A stretch of 64,000 nucleotides of DNA from Actinomycetota bacterium. GTDB taxonomy: Bacteria > Actinomycetota > Acidimicrobiia > Acidimicrobiales > Ilumatobacteraceae. Shown in pieces: positions 8,902 through 15,833 of the stretch. Location of the stretch: the NCBI GenBank assembly GCA_016870775.1, contig VGAK01000004.1, forward strand, positions 36,022-100,021, written 5' to 3'. Within the stretch, counting starts at the first letter, position 1, and every line of letters starts with the position of its first letter. The notes beneath the pieces were generated by a model, which saw nothing but the letters and a program-made list of their open reading frames with translations, was not told the DNA's origin and searched no databases. The translations under genes and the position numbers were made by a program.

Positions 8902-9662
8902 GCCGGGATGCGTCCGGGGCGGTCATGCCGTTGATGGGGCATCTGCGGGAGTTGCGCTCTCGAATCATCAAGTGTTGTCTGGCGATCGCCGCCGGAACGG
9001 TCGTCCTGCTGGTGGTCTACTCGTGGTTCAAGGGAATCCTCACGCGACCGTACGTGGACATCTGCCGGACGGACCCCTCCCTCGGCTGCGACGGGTCGTT
9101 GTACTCGCTCGGACCGCTCGATGGATTCTCGGCCAGGATCCGCATCAGCACATGGGGAGGTGTCGTGCTGTCGCTGCCGGTTGTGATGTGGCAGATCTGG
9201 CGATTCATCGTGCCGGCACTGGAGTCACGTGAACGCCGGTATGCGGTTCCCTTCATCGTGTCGTCGGTGGTCCTCTTCGCGGCGGGATGTGCGCTCGGGT
9301 ACTGGACCCTGGACAAGGCGCTCGAGTTCCTGATCTCGTGGGCGGGGACAGACATCACCGAGGCCTACCGGATCAACGACTACGTCACCCTCGTGACCCT
9401 GATGATGCTCGCATTCGGGATCGGATTTCTGAGCCCCGTCCTGATCGTGTTCCTGCAACTCGTCGGGGCGGTGAGTCCGCGCACCCTGGTCAGGCAGTGG
9501 CGCTTCGCGGTGATGGGCATCTTCGTGCTCGCGGCGGTGATCACGCCCTCCGGTGATCCGATCACCCTGCTCGCCCTGTCGGTCCCCCTCACGGTGCTGT
9601 ACGCGGCGGCCGTCGCCATCGGCTGGGTGGTGGTGCGGCGCCGAGATCCGGTGTCGGCGTGA
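8898..9662 (+). CDS. tatC: Twin-arginine translocase subunit TatC
   Basis: MGHLRELRSRI motif, six TM segments. Confidence 0.95.
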   Translation: MSRDASGAVMPLMGHLRELRSRIIKCCLAIAAGTVVLLVVYSWFKGILTRPYVDICRTDPSLGCDGSLYSLGPLDGFSARIRISTWGGVVLSLPVVMWQIWRFIVPALESRERRYAVPFIVSSVVLFAAGCALGYWTLDKALEFLISWAGTDITEAYRINDYVTLVTLMMLAFGIGFLSPVLIVFLQLVGAVSPRTLVRQWRFAVMGIFVLAAVITPSGDPITLLALSVPLTVLYAAAVAIGWVVVRRRDPVSA

Positions 9663-12244
9663 GGGAGTCCGGAGCGATCCGCCGGGCGTTCCTGGACCAA
9701 CTCGCGCACCAACCCGACCCCTTCCAGGTCCAGGCGATGGATTCGCTGGACGAGGGCGCCTCAGTCCTCGTTGCGGCACCGACCGGGTCGGGAAAGACCC
9801 TCGTGGCTGAGTACGCGGTCGCACTCGCACTGGCCCGGGGCAAGCGCGCCTTCTACACGACGCCGATCAAAGCCCTCTCCAACCAGAAGCACCGGGATTT
9901 CGGGGTCCAGATGGGTGGTTCGCGTGTGGGCCTGGTGACGGGCGACAACAGCGTGAACAACGAGGCCCCGCTCGTGGTGATGACCACCGAAGTGCTGCGC
10001 AACATGATCTATGCGGGCTCCACGCGTCTCGATGACCTTGGGGTCGTCATCCTCGACGAGGTGCACTACCTCCAGGACGCCTATCGCGGGCCGGTCTGGG
10101 AGGAGGTGATCATCCAATTGCCGCCCGAGGTGCAATTGGTCTGTCTCTCGGCGACGGTGTCGAACGCCGACGAAGTCGCCGAGTGGCTCACCACCGTCCG
10201 GGGGAGAACCGACGCGATCATCGAGCGGACCAGGCCCGTGGAGCTGGTGACCCATTTCGCCCACAGGGATTCAGCGACTGGTCGTGTGGAGATGAACGAG
10301 ACGATCACGGCGGGAGAGCCCAATCGCCACCTGCAGAAATTGATGGTGTCGAAGGGGCCGCACTCGGGGCCCCGCAGGAATGCTCGTCCGCGACGACGGT
10401 TTTCTCCACCGTCGCGGACCGAGACCATCGAACTCCTGGAATCGCGCCAGATGCTCCCGGCGATCGTGTTCATCTTCAGCCGCGCCCAATGCGAGGACGC
10501 GGTGGCATCGTGCTCGCGGGACGGCATCGTGCTCACATCCGCCGACGAGGAGGACCAGATCGTCTCGATCATCGAGGAGCACTGCGCGGTGCTGTCCGGC
10601 GACGACCGGGTTGCCCTGGGGTACGACCGCTTCGTCGACGATGTGTCGGCGGGAATCGCCTGTCACCACGCGGGGATGATCCCGATGTTCAAGGAGGCCG
10701 TGGAGCAGTGCTTCGTGCGGGGTCTCGTCAAGGTCGTGTTCGCCACCGAGACCCTCGCGGTGGGCATCAACATGCCCGCACGGGCGGTTGTGATCGAGAA
10801 ACTCACCAAGTACACCGGGGAGCACCACGCGCTGCTGCGTGCGTCGGAGTACACCCAGTTGACGGGCAGGGCCGGCCGACGCGGCCTCGACGAGATCGGT
10901 CACGCGATTGCTCTGTGGAGCCCGTGGGTCAGCTTCGATCAGGCAGCCGGACTTGCGCTGAGCAGGTCGTTCCGACTCACGTCGGCGTTCCGCCCCACCT
11001 ACAACATGGCGGTCAACATGGTGGCGAACCATTCGCGGGAGGGTGCCGAGCACATCTTGAATCTGTCGTTCGCCCAGTTCCAGGCCGACCGTGACGTCGT
11101 GACCACGGAGGCCCAACTCGAGCGTCGCCGTCGCGAACTCGCTCTGCTCGAGGGACCCGCGACCGAGGCGCGAGGCCGACCCGAGTCCGGACCATCGTCG
11201 TCGGGCGCTGAAGTCCCGGGTCTCGATGGGGAATCGCCCGGGGTTCCCGCTGGCGACGTCGAGGCAGAGATTGCCCTGCGCTCGCTGAGACCAGGCGATG
11301 TCGTCGTCTTCGACGCCGCCAATATCAGGGGAAGGGGACTGGTCCTTGCCACCGCATCCCGGCGTTCTGGGACCAGGCTGACTGTGCTGTCGCCCTCGCG
11401 CAAGACCGTCGAGGTCTCCGCCCGGGACCTGCGGTCGCTTCCGTCTCGCGCCGCTCGTGTCGATCTGCCGGTTCCTTTCGAACCGGCGCGCACAGAGTTC
11501 ATCCGGGAGGCCGCCTCACGGTTGGTGAAGGCTCGGATCGACGACTCTTCCCCGGGGCGTGCGGTGAATCACTCGGGGCGCCGGACCGACGGCGCCGCGG
11601 ACTCAGCGCGCGCGCTGCGGCGTCTCCGCCGGGAGATCGAGCAGATGGAGAACCGGGTGGGCCGGCGGTCCGGTTCGGTCTCGGCGCGGTTCATGGATGT
11701 CGTCGGGATGCTCGAGGAGCTCGGGTGCGTGAGGGACTGGTCGCTTCTGCCCAAGGGATCGACACTCGCGGGGATCTTCCACGAATCGGATCTCCTGATC
11801 GTGGAGGTCATCACGTCGCGAACCCTTGACAAATTGGCCCCGGTGGATCTGGTGGCCGTGCTGTCGACCCTGGTGTTCGAACCGCGCGGTAACGAGGCGT
11901 CCTCGGCACGGTGGCCCAATGACACTGTGCGCCAGTGCGCCAGGCGAATCGAACGCATCAGCATGCGGATCCAAGCCATGGAAGCCTCGCGGCACATGGC
12001 GCGGCATCGTCCGCCTCATCCGGGAATCGTGTGGGAGATGTCCGCGTGGGCGAACGGCCGACCGCTGAGCCGCATCATCGACGACGATCTCACGCCGGGG
12101 GACTTCGTGCGCACGACGCGCCAGATCATCGACCTCCTGCGACAGATCTCCCTCGTGGCGCCCTCGGAGGTGCTGCGCGGAACCGCCGAGGAGGCGGTGC
12201 GCTTGATCAATCGGGGTGTCGTCGCGGCCGCGGGGACCAGATGA
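9659..12244 (+). CDS. helY: Ski2-like DEAD/DEAH-box RNA helicase (HelY-like)
   Basis: APTGSGKT, DEVH box, QLTGRAGRRG; placed after tatC as in other actinobacteria. Confidence 0.92.
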   Translation: MRESGAIRRAFLDQLAHQPDPFQVQAMDSLDEGASVLVAAPTGSGKTLVAEYAVALALARGKRAFYTTPIKALSNQKHRDFGVQMGGSRVGLVTGDNSVNNEAPLVVMTTEVLRNMIYAGSTRLDDLGVVILDEVHYLQDAYRGPVWEEVIIQLPPEVQLVCLSATVSNADEVAEWLTTVRGRTDAIIERTRPVELVTHFAHRDSATGRVEMNETITAGEPNRHLQKLMVSKGPHSGPRRNARPRRRFSPPSRTETIELLESRQMLPAIVFIFSRAQCEDAVASCSRDGIVLTSADEEDQIVSIIEEHCAVLSGDDRVALGYDRFVDDVSAGIACHHAGMIPMFKEAVEQCFVRGLVKVVFATETLAVGINMPARAVVIEKLTKYTGEHHALLRASEYTQLTGRAGRRGLDEIGHAIALWSPWVSFDQAAGLALSRSFRLTSAFRPTYNMAVNMVANHSREGAEHILNLSFAQFQADRDVVTTEAQLERRRRELALLEGPATEARGRPESGPSSSGAEVPGLDGESPGVPAGDVEAEIALRSLRPGDVVVFDAANIRGRGLVLATASRRSGTRLTVLSPSRKTVEVSARDLRSLPSRAARVDLPVPFEPARTEFIREAASRLVKARIDDSSPGRAVNHSGRRTDGAADSARALRRLRREIEQMENRVGRRSGSVSARFMDVVGMLEELGCVRDWSLLPKGSTLAGIFHESDLLIVEVITSRTLDKLAPVDLVAVLSTLVFEPRGNEASSARWPNDTVRQCARRIERISMRIQAMEASRHMARHRPPHPGIVWEMSAWANGRPLSRIIDDDLTPGDFVRTTRQIIDLLRQISLVAPSEVLRGTAEEAVRLINRGVVAAAGTR

Positions 12245-12864: not shown

Positions 12865-14070
12865 GTGCGGGACGACGCCGACATCGAGGCTCTCAAAGCG
12901 AGGGCGATCGCGGCAATCGACGCCGCTGCTGCCGACTTGGTCGAGGTCAGCCACGACATTCACGGTCACCCTGAACAGAACTACGAGGAGAGGTTCGCTG
13001 CCGACCTGCTCGCGCGCACGGCATCACGTCACGGCATGGATGTCGCGCTCGGTGTGTACGGGCCCGACACCGCTGTCGGCGCTGAGTTCGGGGGCGGTCC
13101 GCTCGTGTGCGTGATGAGCGAGTACGACGCCCTGCCCGACATCGGTCACGGATGCGGCCACAACGTGATCGCGGCGGCTGGTCTGGGGGCCGCCATCGGC
13201 CTGGCGGCAGTCGCCGGCGACGCGGGCGGTCGGCTCAGGTGGCTCGGAACCCCCGCCGAGGAGGGCGGCGGCGGAAAGATCGTCATGGCCCGCAACGGTG
13301 CCCTGGCCGATGTGGAGCTCGCCATGATGGTGCACTCGGCGGATGCCGACCTGACCCAGATCGATGCGATCGCTCTCCAACAGTTGGTGGTCGAGTACAC
13401 GGGAACCGAGGCACATGCGGCCGCAGCGCCGCACATGGGCCGCAACGCCCTCGATGCTGCCGTGCTGGGGTACATGGGTGTGGCGGCCCTGCGCCAGCAC
13501 ATCAGGTCCACGGAGCGGGTGCACGGGATCTTCACCAAGGCTGGCGACAAGCCCAACATCGTCCCCCGTGAAGCCGGCACCGAGTGGTACGTCAGATCCG
13601 ACACGATCGGATCCCTCGAGGAATTGAAGCCGCGCGTCCTGGCCGCCCTCGAGGCGGGTGCACACGCCTGCGGATGCGGCGTGTCGCATCGATGGGTGGG
13701 GGCCCCCTATGCGGATCTGATCTCGAACGACACTGCGGCGTCTTTGTATGTCGCAAATGCAGCGAGACTCGGCCGGAGTGTCTCGGACCCCCGCACGGGT
13801 GTCCACCGAGTGGTGGGGAGCACGGACATGGGCAATGTGAGCCATCTCGTGCCCACGATTCACCCGATGATCGCCGCCGCGCCCCGGGGGACCGTGATCC
13901 ACACCGCCGACTTCGCCACGCATGCCCGTGGCTCCCTCGCAGACGCAGCCGTCGTCGATGGAGCGAAGGCGATGGCCCTCACGGTCATCGATGCGTGGGT
14001 CGATGGGGGAGTGCGTCGCGCGATCGCCGAGGAGTTCTCCCGCACCGGTCCCGACACCTCGGTGCTGTAG
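12865..14070 (+). CDS. M20 family metallo-amidohydrolase (AbgB/aminobenzoyl-glutamate hydrolase-like)
   Basis: SEYDALPDIGHGCGHNVI metal site motif; GTG start 7 nt after TAACCT. Confidence 0.9.
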   Translation: MRDDADIEALKARAIAAIDAAAADLVEVSHDIHGHPEQNYEERFAADLLARTASRHGMDVALGVYGPDTAVGAEFGGGPLVCVMSEYDALPDIGHGCGHNVIAAAGLGAAIGLAAVAGDAGGRLRWLGTPAEEGGGGKIVMARNGALADVELAMMVHSADADLTQIDAIALQQLVVEYTGTEAHAAAAPHMGRNALDAAVLGYMGVAALRQHIRSTERVHGIFTKAGDKPNIVPREAGTEWYVRSDTIGSLEELKPRVLAALEAGAHACGCGVSHRWVGAPYADLISNDTAASLYVANAARLGRSVSDPRTGVHRVVGSTDMGNVSHLVPTIHPMIAAAPRGTVIHTADFATHARGSLADAAVVDGAKAMALTVIDAWVDGGVRRAIAEEFSRTGPDTSVL

Positions 14071-14228: not shown

Positions 14229-15833
14229 GTGGCGGTCTATGTCCCCGAGCAGTACACGGACACCGAGGCCGAGATCCTGCGCCGGTACTTCACCAATCTG
14301 GACCTGCCGGTGTTCGGTCTCGTGAATCTTCCCGAGGTGGTCAAGGGGGCCTTGTTCGCGAGATACAGCAGGACGCACAAGAGTCTGCGCAGGTTGTTCC
14401 TCGACGAATTCGTGAACGATCTGGATGTTTCGGGTGACGTGGCCGTCGACGCCACTGTCGGTGTCGACCGTGCCGAGGCGCTCTATGAGAAGGTGTTCGT
14501 GGAATACGGGGACGACTCGGTGGCCCAACTCGGGGGCGTGCACCTGGCCTGCGAGCAGGCCTCGAACGTCCTCACCAAGATCCTCGAGTGGGGCCGCCTG
14601 ATGAGCTATCTCGAGCAGAGCACCCGGTACATCTCCTACGATGAGCGTCTCGGGGGTCGCTATCGCTACTACCGCGATCCCGACCTCCTGGCCGGTCGAT
14701 TCGGAACCCGTTACGTCGGTGACATGGACCGGATGTTCGACTCCTACTGCCGCTTGGCCGAGGCCGTCACGGAGCACGTGCGCGAAACAGTGAGTCGTGG
14801 CAAGGGTGACAGCGACTTCGTCTTCCGGCAGGCGACACGTGCCAAGGCCCTCGATGCGGTGCGGGGTGCCCTGCCGGCGGCGTCGTTGTCGAACGTCGGG
14901 ATCTACGGCACGGGTCAGGCATTCGAGGCGCTGCTGCTGCGCATGCGGGCCCACCCGCTCCCAGAGGCGCGCCACTACGGCGATCTGATGCTGGGAGAGC
15001 TCCGCAAGGTGATCCCGAGCTTCCTTCGTCGCGTCGACGTGCCGGACAGGGGCGGACGATGGTCGGAGTACTTGTCGAGCACGAGCCGGGACACAGCCGG
15101 TGTCGTCGAGCGTCTGCTCGGTGACACCATCGCCACCGAGGTGGACGAAGTGACGCTCGTGGACTTCGACCCGGAGGGGGAGGACAAAGTCGTCGCGGCG
15201 GTGCTCTACCCGCAGTCGCACCTGCCAGAGAGCCAGATTCGGGCGAGGGTCGCGTCCATGTCCATCGAGGACAAGATCGCGGTGTTGCGTGCCTATGTGG
15301 GTGAGCGCGAGAATCGCCGCCACAAGCCCGGGCGCGCTTTCGAGCGGACCGGTTACCGCTTCGATGTGCTGTCGGATTACGGCGCTTTCCGGGATCTTCA
15401 GCGGCACCGGCTGCTGACGATCGAGTGGCAACCGCTCACGCCGTACCACGGCTACTCCAGACCCGATCTGGTCGATTCGGCGAACTGTGCCGAGGTGTTC
15501 GACGAAGTCATGGAACGGTCGTCGTTGCTCTACGACTCCCTCGTGGGGGACCATCCTCACCAAGCCGCATATGCGGTCGCGATGGCGTACAGGATCAGGT
15601 ACGTGATGCAGTTCAATGCGCGCCAGGCCGTCCACATGCTGGAGCTGCGCTCCGGTCCGCAGGGGCATCCCGCCTACCGGCGCGTGGCCCTCGACATGCA
15701 CCGCCAGATCGCCGAGGTGGCCCAGCATCGTGCGATCGCAGCCACCATGACCCACATGACGACCGAGGAGCCCGAACTGGAGCGACTCGAGGCGGAGCGA
15801 AGGGCCGAGAAACGCAGATCCGGCCTGAATTGA
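14229..15833 (+). CDS. Tandem-domain ThyX-like (FAD-dependent thymidylate synthase family) protein
   Basis: Two ThyX-like halves: EWGRLMSYLEQSTRY and LQRHRLLTIEWQPLTPY; FNARQAVHMLELRSG; GTG start 8 nt after TAGGCT. Confidence 0.8.
   Translation: MAVYVPEQYTDTEAEILRRYFTNLDLPVFGLVNLPEVVKGALFARYSRTHKSLRRLFLDEFVNDLDVSGDVAVDATVGVDRAEALYEKVFVEYGDDSVAQLGGVHLACEQASNVLTKILEWGRLMSYLEQSTRYISYDERLGGRYRYYRDPDLLAGRFGTRYVGDMDRMFDSYCRLAEAVTEHVRETVSRGKGDSDFVFRQATRAKALDAVRGALPAASLSNVGIYGTGQAFEALLLRMRAHPLPEARHYGDLMLGELRKVIPSFLRRVDVPDRGGRWSEYLSSTSRDTAGVVERLLGDTIATEVDEVTLVDFDPEGEDKVVAAVLYPQSHLPESQIRARVASMSIEDKIAVLRAYVGERENRRHKPGRAFERTGYRFDVLSDYGAFRDLQRHRLLTIEWQPLTPYHGYSRPDLVDSANCAEVFDEVMERSSLLYDSLVGDHPHQAAYAVAMAYRIRYVMQFNARQAVHMLELRSGPQGHPAYRRVALDMHRQIAEVAQHRAIAATMTHMTTEEPELERLEAERRAEKRRSGLN

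Follow-up and report, generated by a model that had tools for sequence, protein, structure and literature searches.

The window, by which we mean the whole 64,000-nucleotide stretch of DNA analysed, carries on its forward strand a gene whose single polypeptide contains two ThyX domains. Its frame is free of stops upstream as far as 13584, and homologues begin at about the GTG at 14229. Before it lies an M20-family peptidase gene (12865-14070), itself downstream of a gene for a Ski2/Mtr4-type DEAD-box helicase with a DSHCT domain (9659-12244, +). The features discussed below are the following:

14229..15833, +, tandem ThyX gene; GTG start in agreement with homologue starts, 534 aa, stop included
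14286..15038, +, domain 1 (residues ~20-270), ThyX domain, predicted dUMP-binding specialist; PF02511, 3gwc profile match, AF2
14589..14597, +, W121-G122-R123, site of the lost RH of RHR in domain 1; profile mapping; W/R, G/P/S and R in 150 sequences
14613..14630, +, E129-Q-S131-T-R133-Y134, predicted dUMP loop with the lid tyrosine; Mtb S105, R107, Y108; 150/150
15141..15773, +, domain 2 (residues 305-515), ThyX domain, predicted FAD-binding specialist; PF02511, H. pylori/T. maritima profile matches, AF2
15402..15410, +, R392-H393-R394, predicted FAD-binding RHR of domain 2; Mtb R95-R97; 150/150
15432..15443, +, P402-L-T404-P405, degenerate dUMP-loop position of domain 2; P402 variable, entropy 2.5 bits
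15615..15623, +, N463-A-R465, predicted to reach FAD from the second flavin-binding domain; Mtb R190; in the phylum, R465 150/150
15648..15650, +, R474, predicted to contact dUMP although part of the FAD-binding domain; Mtb R199; 150/150

Two Thy1 domains and a divided motif

The original prediction saw here a tandem ThyX-like protein, and two complete Thy1 domains are indeed found, both above the PF02511 gathering cut-off of 24.8 bits. In the profile search of the genome, the first half matches PF02511 (Thy1) with 48.6 bits (E 3.2e-13, window 14466-15020) and the second with 55.4 bits (E 2.7e-15, window 15156-15722); the whole protein reaches 105.4 bits over two stretches. Both halves are homologous to ThyX proteins of the PDB, the domain 1 profile matching M. 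tuberculosis ThyX 3gwc (E 3.7e-5) and that of domain 2 the H. pylori and T. maritima enzymes. This homology is visible only with profiles, phmmer having returned no match of the protein among PDB sequences. A comparison of domain 1 with domain 2 by hhalign also gave no match, because both profiles are shallow. The nearest relatives of the tandem protein are records named Ilumatobacteraceae and Acidimicrobiia.

The AF2 model of the full chain, computed from a diverse alignment as a single chain without ligands, reaches pLDDT 85 and pTM 0.84, with helices and strands in like order in both halves; a poor model based on 58 close relatives (pLDDT 56) was discarded in its favour. All matches listed by Foldseek against the PDB are ThyX, with TM up to 0.72 over one domain, either half being possible. 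The second half, whose ThyX nature had been open to refutation, is a ThyX domain by its sequence profile match, and the whole-chain model resembles ThyX folds. In the tree, domain 1 and domain 2 each form one clade and stand together against single-domain ThyX, a topology as expected from one internal duplication, although both branches are very long and, as the program cautions, may have been joined falsely for that reason.

The RHRx7S motif is divided between the two halves. Residues 120-134 of domain 1, EWGRLMSYLEQSTRY, retain ExSxRY and have lost the RH of RHR, while residues 390-406 of domain 2, LQRHRLLTIEWQPLTPY, retain RHR and have lost SxRY. Both strings are thus present as they had first been read, the first half without RH and the second without Ser, and an independent complete RHRx7S, looked for in each half, occurs in neither. 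The FNAR and LELR stretches attributed to the second half lie there at 462-465 and 471-474.

Residue equivalences were taken from HMMER profile alignments with the ThyX of M. tuberculosis, H. pylori and T. maritima. With M. tuberculosis (Mtb) numbering given second, those of domain 1 are S97=S71, N113=R87, W121/G122/R123=RHR 95-97, E129=Q103, S131=S105, R133=R107, Y134=Y108, Q230=R190 and R238=R199. In domain 2 they are R369=S71 (a pairing that may be one residue off), Y384=R87, R392/H393/R394=RHR, P402/T404/P405=S105/R107/Y108, R465=R190 and R474=R199. At the N-terminus of domain 1, residues 39-61 (window 14343-14411), KGALFARYSRTHKSLRRLFLDEF, are nearly invariant, with A44, S47 and R48 conserved even in phage forms; this region may substitute for the lost R87 contact or bind folate.

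Conservation in the phylum and replacement of ThyA

Among 150 tandem homologues across the phylum, S131, R133, Y134, R392, H393, R394, R465 and R474 are present in all 150, while the lost positions of domain 2 (P402, T404 and P405) vary. Judged from these sequences, the split pattern is far beyond chance, because the kept residues are invariant while the lost domain 2 residues drift. The motif is contiguous in all 20 single-domain ThyX sampled from the phylum and divided between the halves in every tandem protein examined, with the exception of one decayed copy (in genome G042). Tandem ThyX occurs in 88 of 297 phylum genomes, single-contig genomes included. In a deep part of its phylum the tandem form is the usual ThyX, not an oddity of one genome. 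That the gene is a duplicate in decay, as the G042 copy might suggest, or an artefact of assembly is refuted by this distribution, to which finished plasmid and phage records are to be added, and by the open frame and its strong conservation; the probability of such an origin is practically nil.

Some further copies deserve mention. G186 holds two full tandem copies and G007 has a second tandem gene copy at a contig edge (L229, G007:C60). The tandem ThyX encoded in metagenome records titled 'Bifidobacterium breve' (L007, L031, L033, L040) shows 73-78% identity to the window protein; these titles look wrong.

The search for another ThyX or a ThyA, put forward as a check, was carried out: the window's own genome, 80% complete, contains a single Thy1 gene, and ThyA, thymidine kinase and DHFR were searched for in it and none was found. 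Relatives of 98-99% completeness are likewise without ThyA and DHFR. The order, most likely Acidimicrobiales to judge by the titles of related records, was surveyed in 148 genomes. Thy1 is found in 142 of them, nearly always as two matches in one frame of ~540 aa, ThyA in 5, thymidine kinase in 39, and DHFR above the cut-off in 2 (G042 and G061), in both cases adjoining ThyA. By subtraction, at least 95 genomes have two Thy1 matches and neither ThyA nor thymidine kinase, the latter being the one deoxynucleoside kinase family covered. The tandem is almost always the sole visible thymidylate-making enzyme across the order.

The two enzymes also replace each other in the phylum: of the 297 genomes, 88 carry the tandem and 38 match ThyA strongly, and only one genome belongs to both groups (Fisher p 1.5e-5, a value that ignores relatedness). 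Three relatives without the tandem (G315, G418 and G313) do have ThyA. Within the order, full-length ThyA is present in three genomes. In one of these, G042, which carries ThyA and DHFR, the ExSxRY stretch of the tandem reads EPSGGSDY and GHxxYR is gone; this one case suggests that ExSxRY is maintained by thymidylate synthase activity. The G042 gene (L228, G042:C41:31119-32651) is still an open frame, with ExSxRY and other conserved residues lost and ThyA-DHFR adjacent, and reflects either decay or functional change. The other two, G061 and G089, keep an intact tandem as well as ThyA, which counts against the reading favoured below. The same is true of a few near-complete genomes of the order: in G030, G086, G097 and G098, all >90% complete, neither ThyX nor ThyA was found, owing to assembly gaps or to an unseen thymidylate route.

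These data bear on the suggestion, made at the outset, of a neofunctionalised flavoprotein, which would put the ThyX fold to a different use, such as methylating another uridine nucleotide, thymidylate coming from another enzyme or from salvage. PolB, a ThyX homologue, acts in this way on UMP. It is described as a UMP C-5 methylase in a paper on ThyX-like enzymes (PMC5003785). The tandem protein also scores only 35.2 bits with the NCBI equivalog TIGR02170 thyX, whose cut-off of 87.9 it does not reach. However, 143 of the 148 order genomes have no ThyA and 109 no thymidine kinase, DHFR is missing, a signature of ThyX-based thymidylate synthesis, and ThyA and the tandem replace each other. Moreover, each dUMP or FAD contact kept by the split is on the chemically right side. 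Another reaction is not favoured, and we consider it unlikely.

Predicted composite active site

In ThyX crystal structures, three subunits contribute to each active site (PMC6514825). Subunit A binds FAD through its RHR, and subunit B through S71 and R190. The contacts to dUMP come from A (R95 and R199) and from C (R87, S105 and R107), and Y108 of subunit C forms the lid over the site (PMC6514825). As the RHR and the SxRY of one site come from different subunits, two specialised halves can build a complete site. In the tandem protein, domain 2 retains the A and B residues (R392, H393, R394, R474 and R465) and domain 1 those of C (S131, R133 and Y134). Two contacts differ and speak against this assignment: in domain 1 the R87 that belongs to the C role is replaced by Asn, and in domain 2 the S71 that belongs to the B role is replaced by Arg. 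The loss of R465 in distant phage forms is a further point against it.

We suppose that a ThyX gene was duplicated and then fused, and that its halves were sub-functionalised. Domain 2 would have retained the flavin side (RHR, NAR and the dUMP-facing Arg of LELR), and domain 1 the nucleotide loop and the lid (ExSxRY). Because only domain 2 still has an R190 equivalent, two chains probably pair through their domain 2 copies as A and B, each copy completing the other's FAD site, and domain 1 would supply the dUMP side across the interface. Two tandem chains would thus form a pseudo-heterotetramer resembling ThyX, in which two FAD/dUMP sites are complete and two are dead. The original prediction proposed that one polypeptide could assemble a composite site; the composite site is strongly supported, but since each ThyX site is built from three subunits (PMC6514825), one polypeptide probably does not suffice, and we expect two tandem chains to dimerise instead. 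This composite geometry is modelled on the published homologues rather than on the AF2 model.

Alternatively, the protein could make thymidylate with only one catalytic half and no composite site, the other half being a remnant with a structural or regulatory role. Fused duplicates often carry a dead partner, and domain 1 does retain S97, R123 and mostly R238 in addition to its loop. Yet neither half holds a full set, domain 2 being without SxRY and domain 1 without RH and the NAR Arg, and both leftover sets are invariant in the 150 sequences and in the phage relatives, the NAR Arg excepted. The retention of ExSxRY argues that domain 1 is not a dead remnant, and we regard a single catalytic half as very unlikely. 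We therefore favour, with a probability of about 0.86, a functional flavin-dependent thymidylate synthase, fused, with a composite site, acting as a pseudo-heterotetramer made of two tandem chains. In this reading the binding of FAD and dUMP, catalysis and the quaternary arrangement are inferred.

Relatives in phages and plasmids, and significance

The same architecture was detected by tblastn in Parabacteroides, Euzebya and Miltoncostaea plasmid records. It also occurs on Bacillus and Paenibacillus plasmids of 200 kb, in jumbo phages of Vibrio and Tunturiibacter and in phages of Microcystis. The distant tandem ThyX of Bacillota phage-plasmids, jumbo phages and cyanophages are 19-26% identical to the window protein and retain the split. 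An alignment of 12 tandem proteins from several bacterial phyla and phages, down to 21% identity, has just 20 invariant columns, among which are E129, S131, R133, Y134, R392, H393, R394 and R474; E129, S131, R133, Y134, R392-R394 and R474 are likewise invariant in 41 tandem proteins, down to 19% identity. R465, the NAR Arg, is not retained in the distant phage forms. Like the window protein, the long ThyX of Microcystis phage Ma-LMM01, of jumbo phages and of Bacillus/Paenibacillus phage-plasmids have ExSxRY in their first and RH(x)R in their second half; they differ from it by their low identity (19-26%), the lost NAR Arg and, in Bacillota forms, RHNR in place of RHR. In three of these forms the second half is visible by alignment and missed by Pfam alone.

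Annotation of these proteins varies. Papers on cyanophages name such genes plainly thyX (PMC5083919, PMC9927357). Two proteins, one of a Vibrio jumbo phage annotated 'hypothetical' and one annotated 'thymidilate synthase-like' (L182:1701-3086, L185:1062-2504), are tandem ThyX with the split motif. In the ~200-kb Bacillus/Paenibacillus 'plasmids' (L178:2902-4488, L179, L180, L187; L212, L214-L223), tandem ThyX lies beside an ATP-dependent helicase; these are probably phage-plasmids, because IMG/VR, too, lists one of them, at equal length, as a virus. The viral_contigs scans with A1, L181 and L185 as queries gave nothing usable. Large ThyX-annotated proteins do exist in databases, as the original prediction stated, under the label 'FAD-dependent thymidylate synthase'. 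Searches of the open-access literature turned up no paper on a tandem or split ThyX, and with this scope we consider the novelty provisional.

The tandem protein and canonical ThyX (T. maritima TM0449, M. tuberculosis ThyX) share several features. The residues kept in the tandem are the known FAD/dUMP contacts of the canonical enzyme, the predicted fold is the same, and both stand in for ThyA and DHFR. The tandem is distinguished by two domains per chain, a divided RHRx7S and a sub-cut-off TIGR02170 score, and two of its four possible sites should be dead. ABC transporters may have one consensus and one degenerate ATP site. The tandem is like them in that, following duplication, the halves keep different pieces of an interface site, one of each pair being alive, whereas fold and chemistry are unrelated and no membership is implied.

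In a broader view, towards which we lean with some reserve, this would be an ancient and widespread ThyX class in which fusion has divided flavin and nucleotide binding, an obligate pseudo-heterotetramer whose two silenced sites would be free for another role, for example regulation or NADPH/folate entry. It would range over deep actinobacterial lineages, some Bacteroidota, phages and phage-plasmids.

The mechanism of ThyX, an antibacterial target, is hard to study, because its four sites and all its subunits are identical. If our reading is true, the tandem form places the flavin and nucleotide sides on separate halves, each of which can be mutated alone, and would reveal whether half the sites suffice. 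It would also explain how thymidylate is made in a large bacterial group without ThyA and usually without thymidine kinase, whose proteins do not pass the usual motif and equivalog tests for ThyX.
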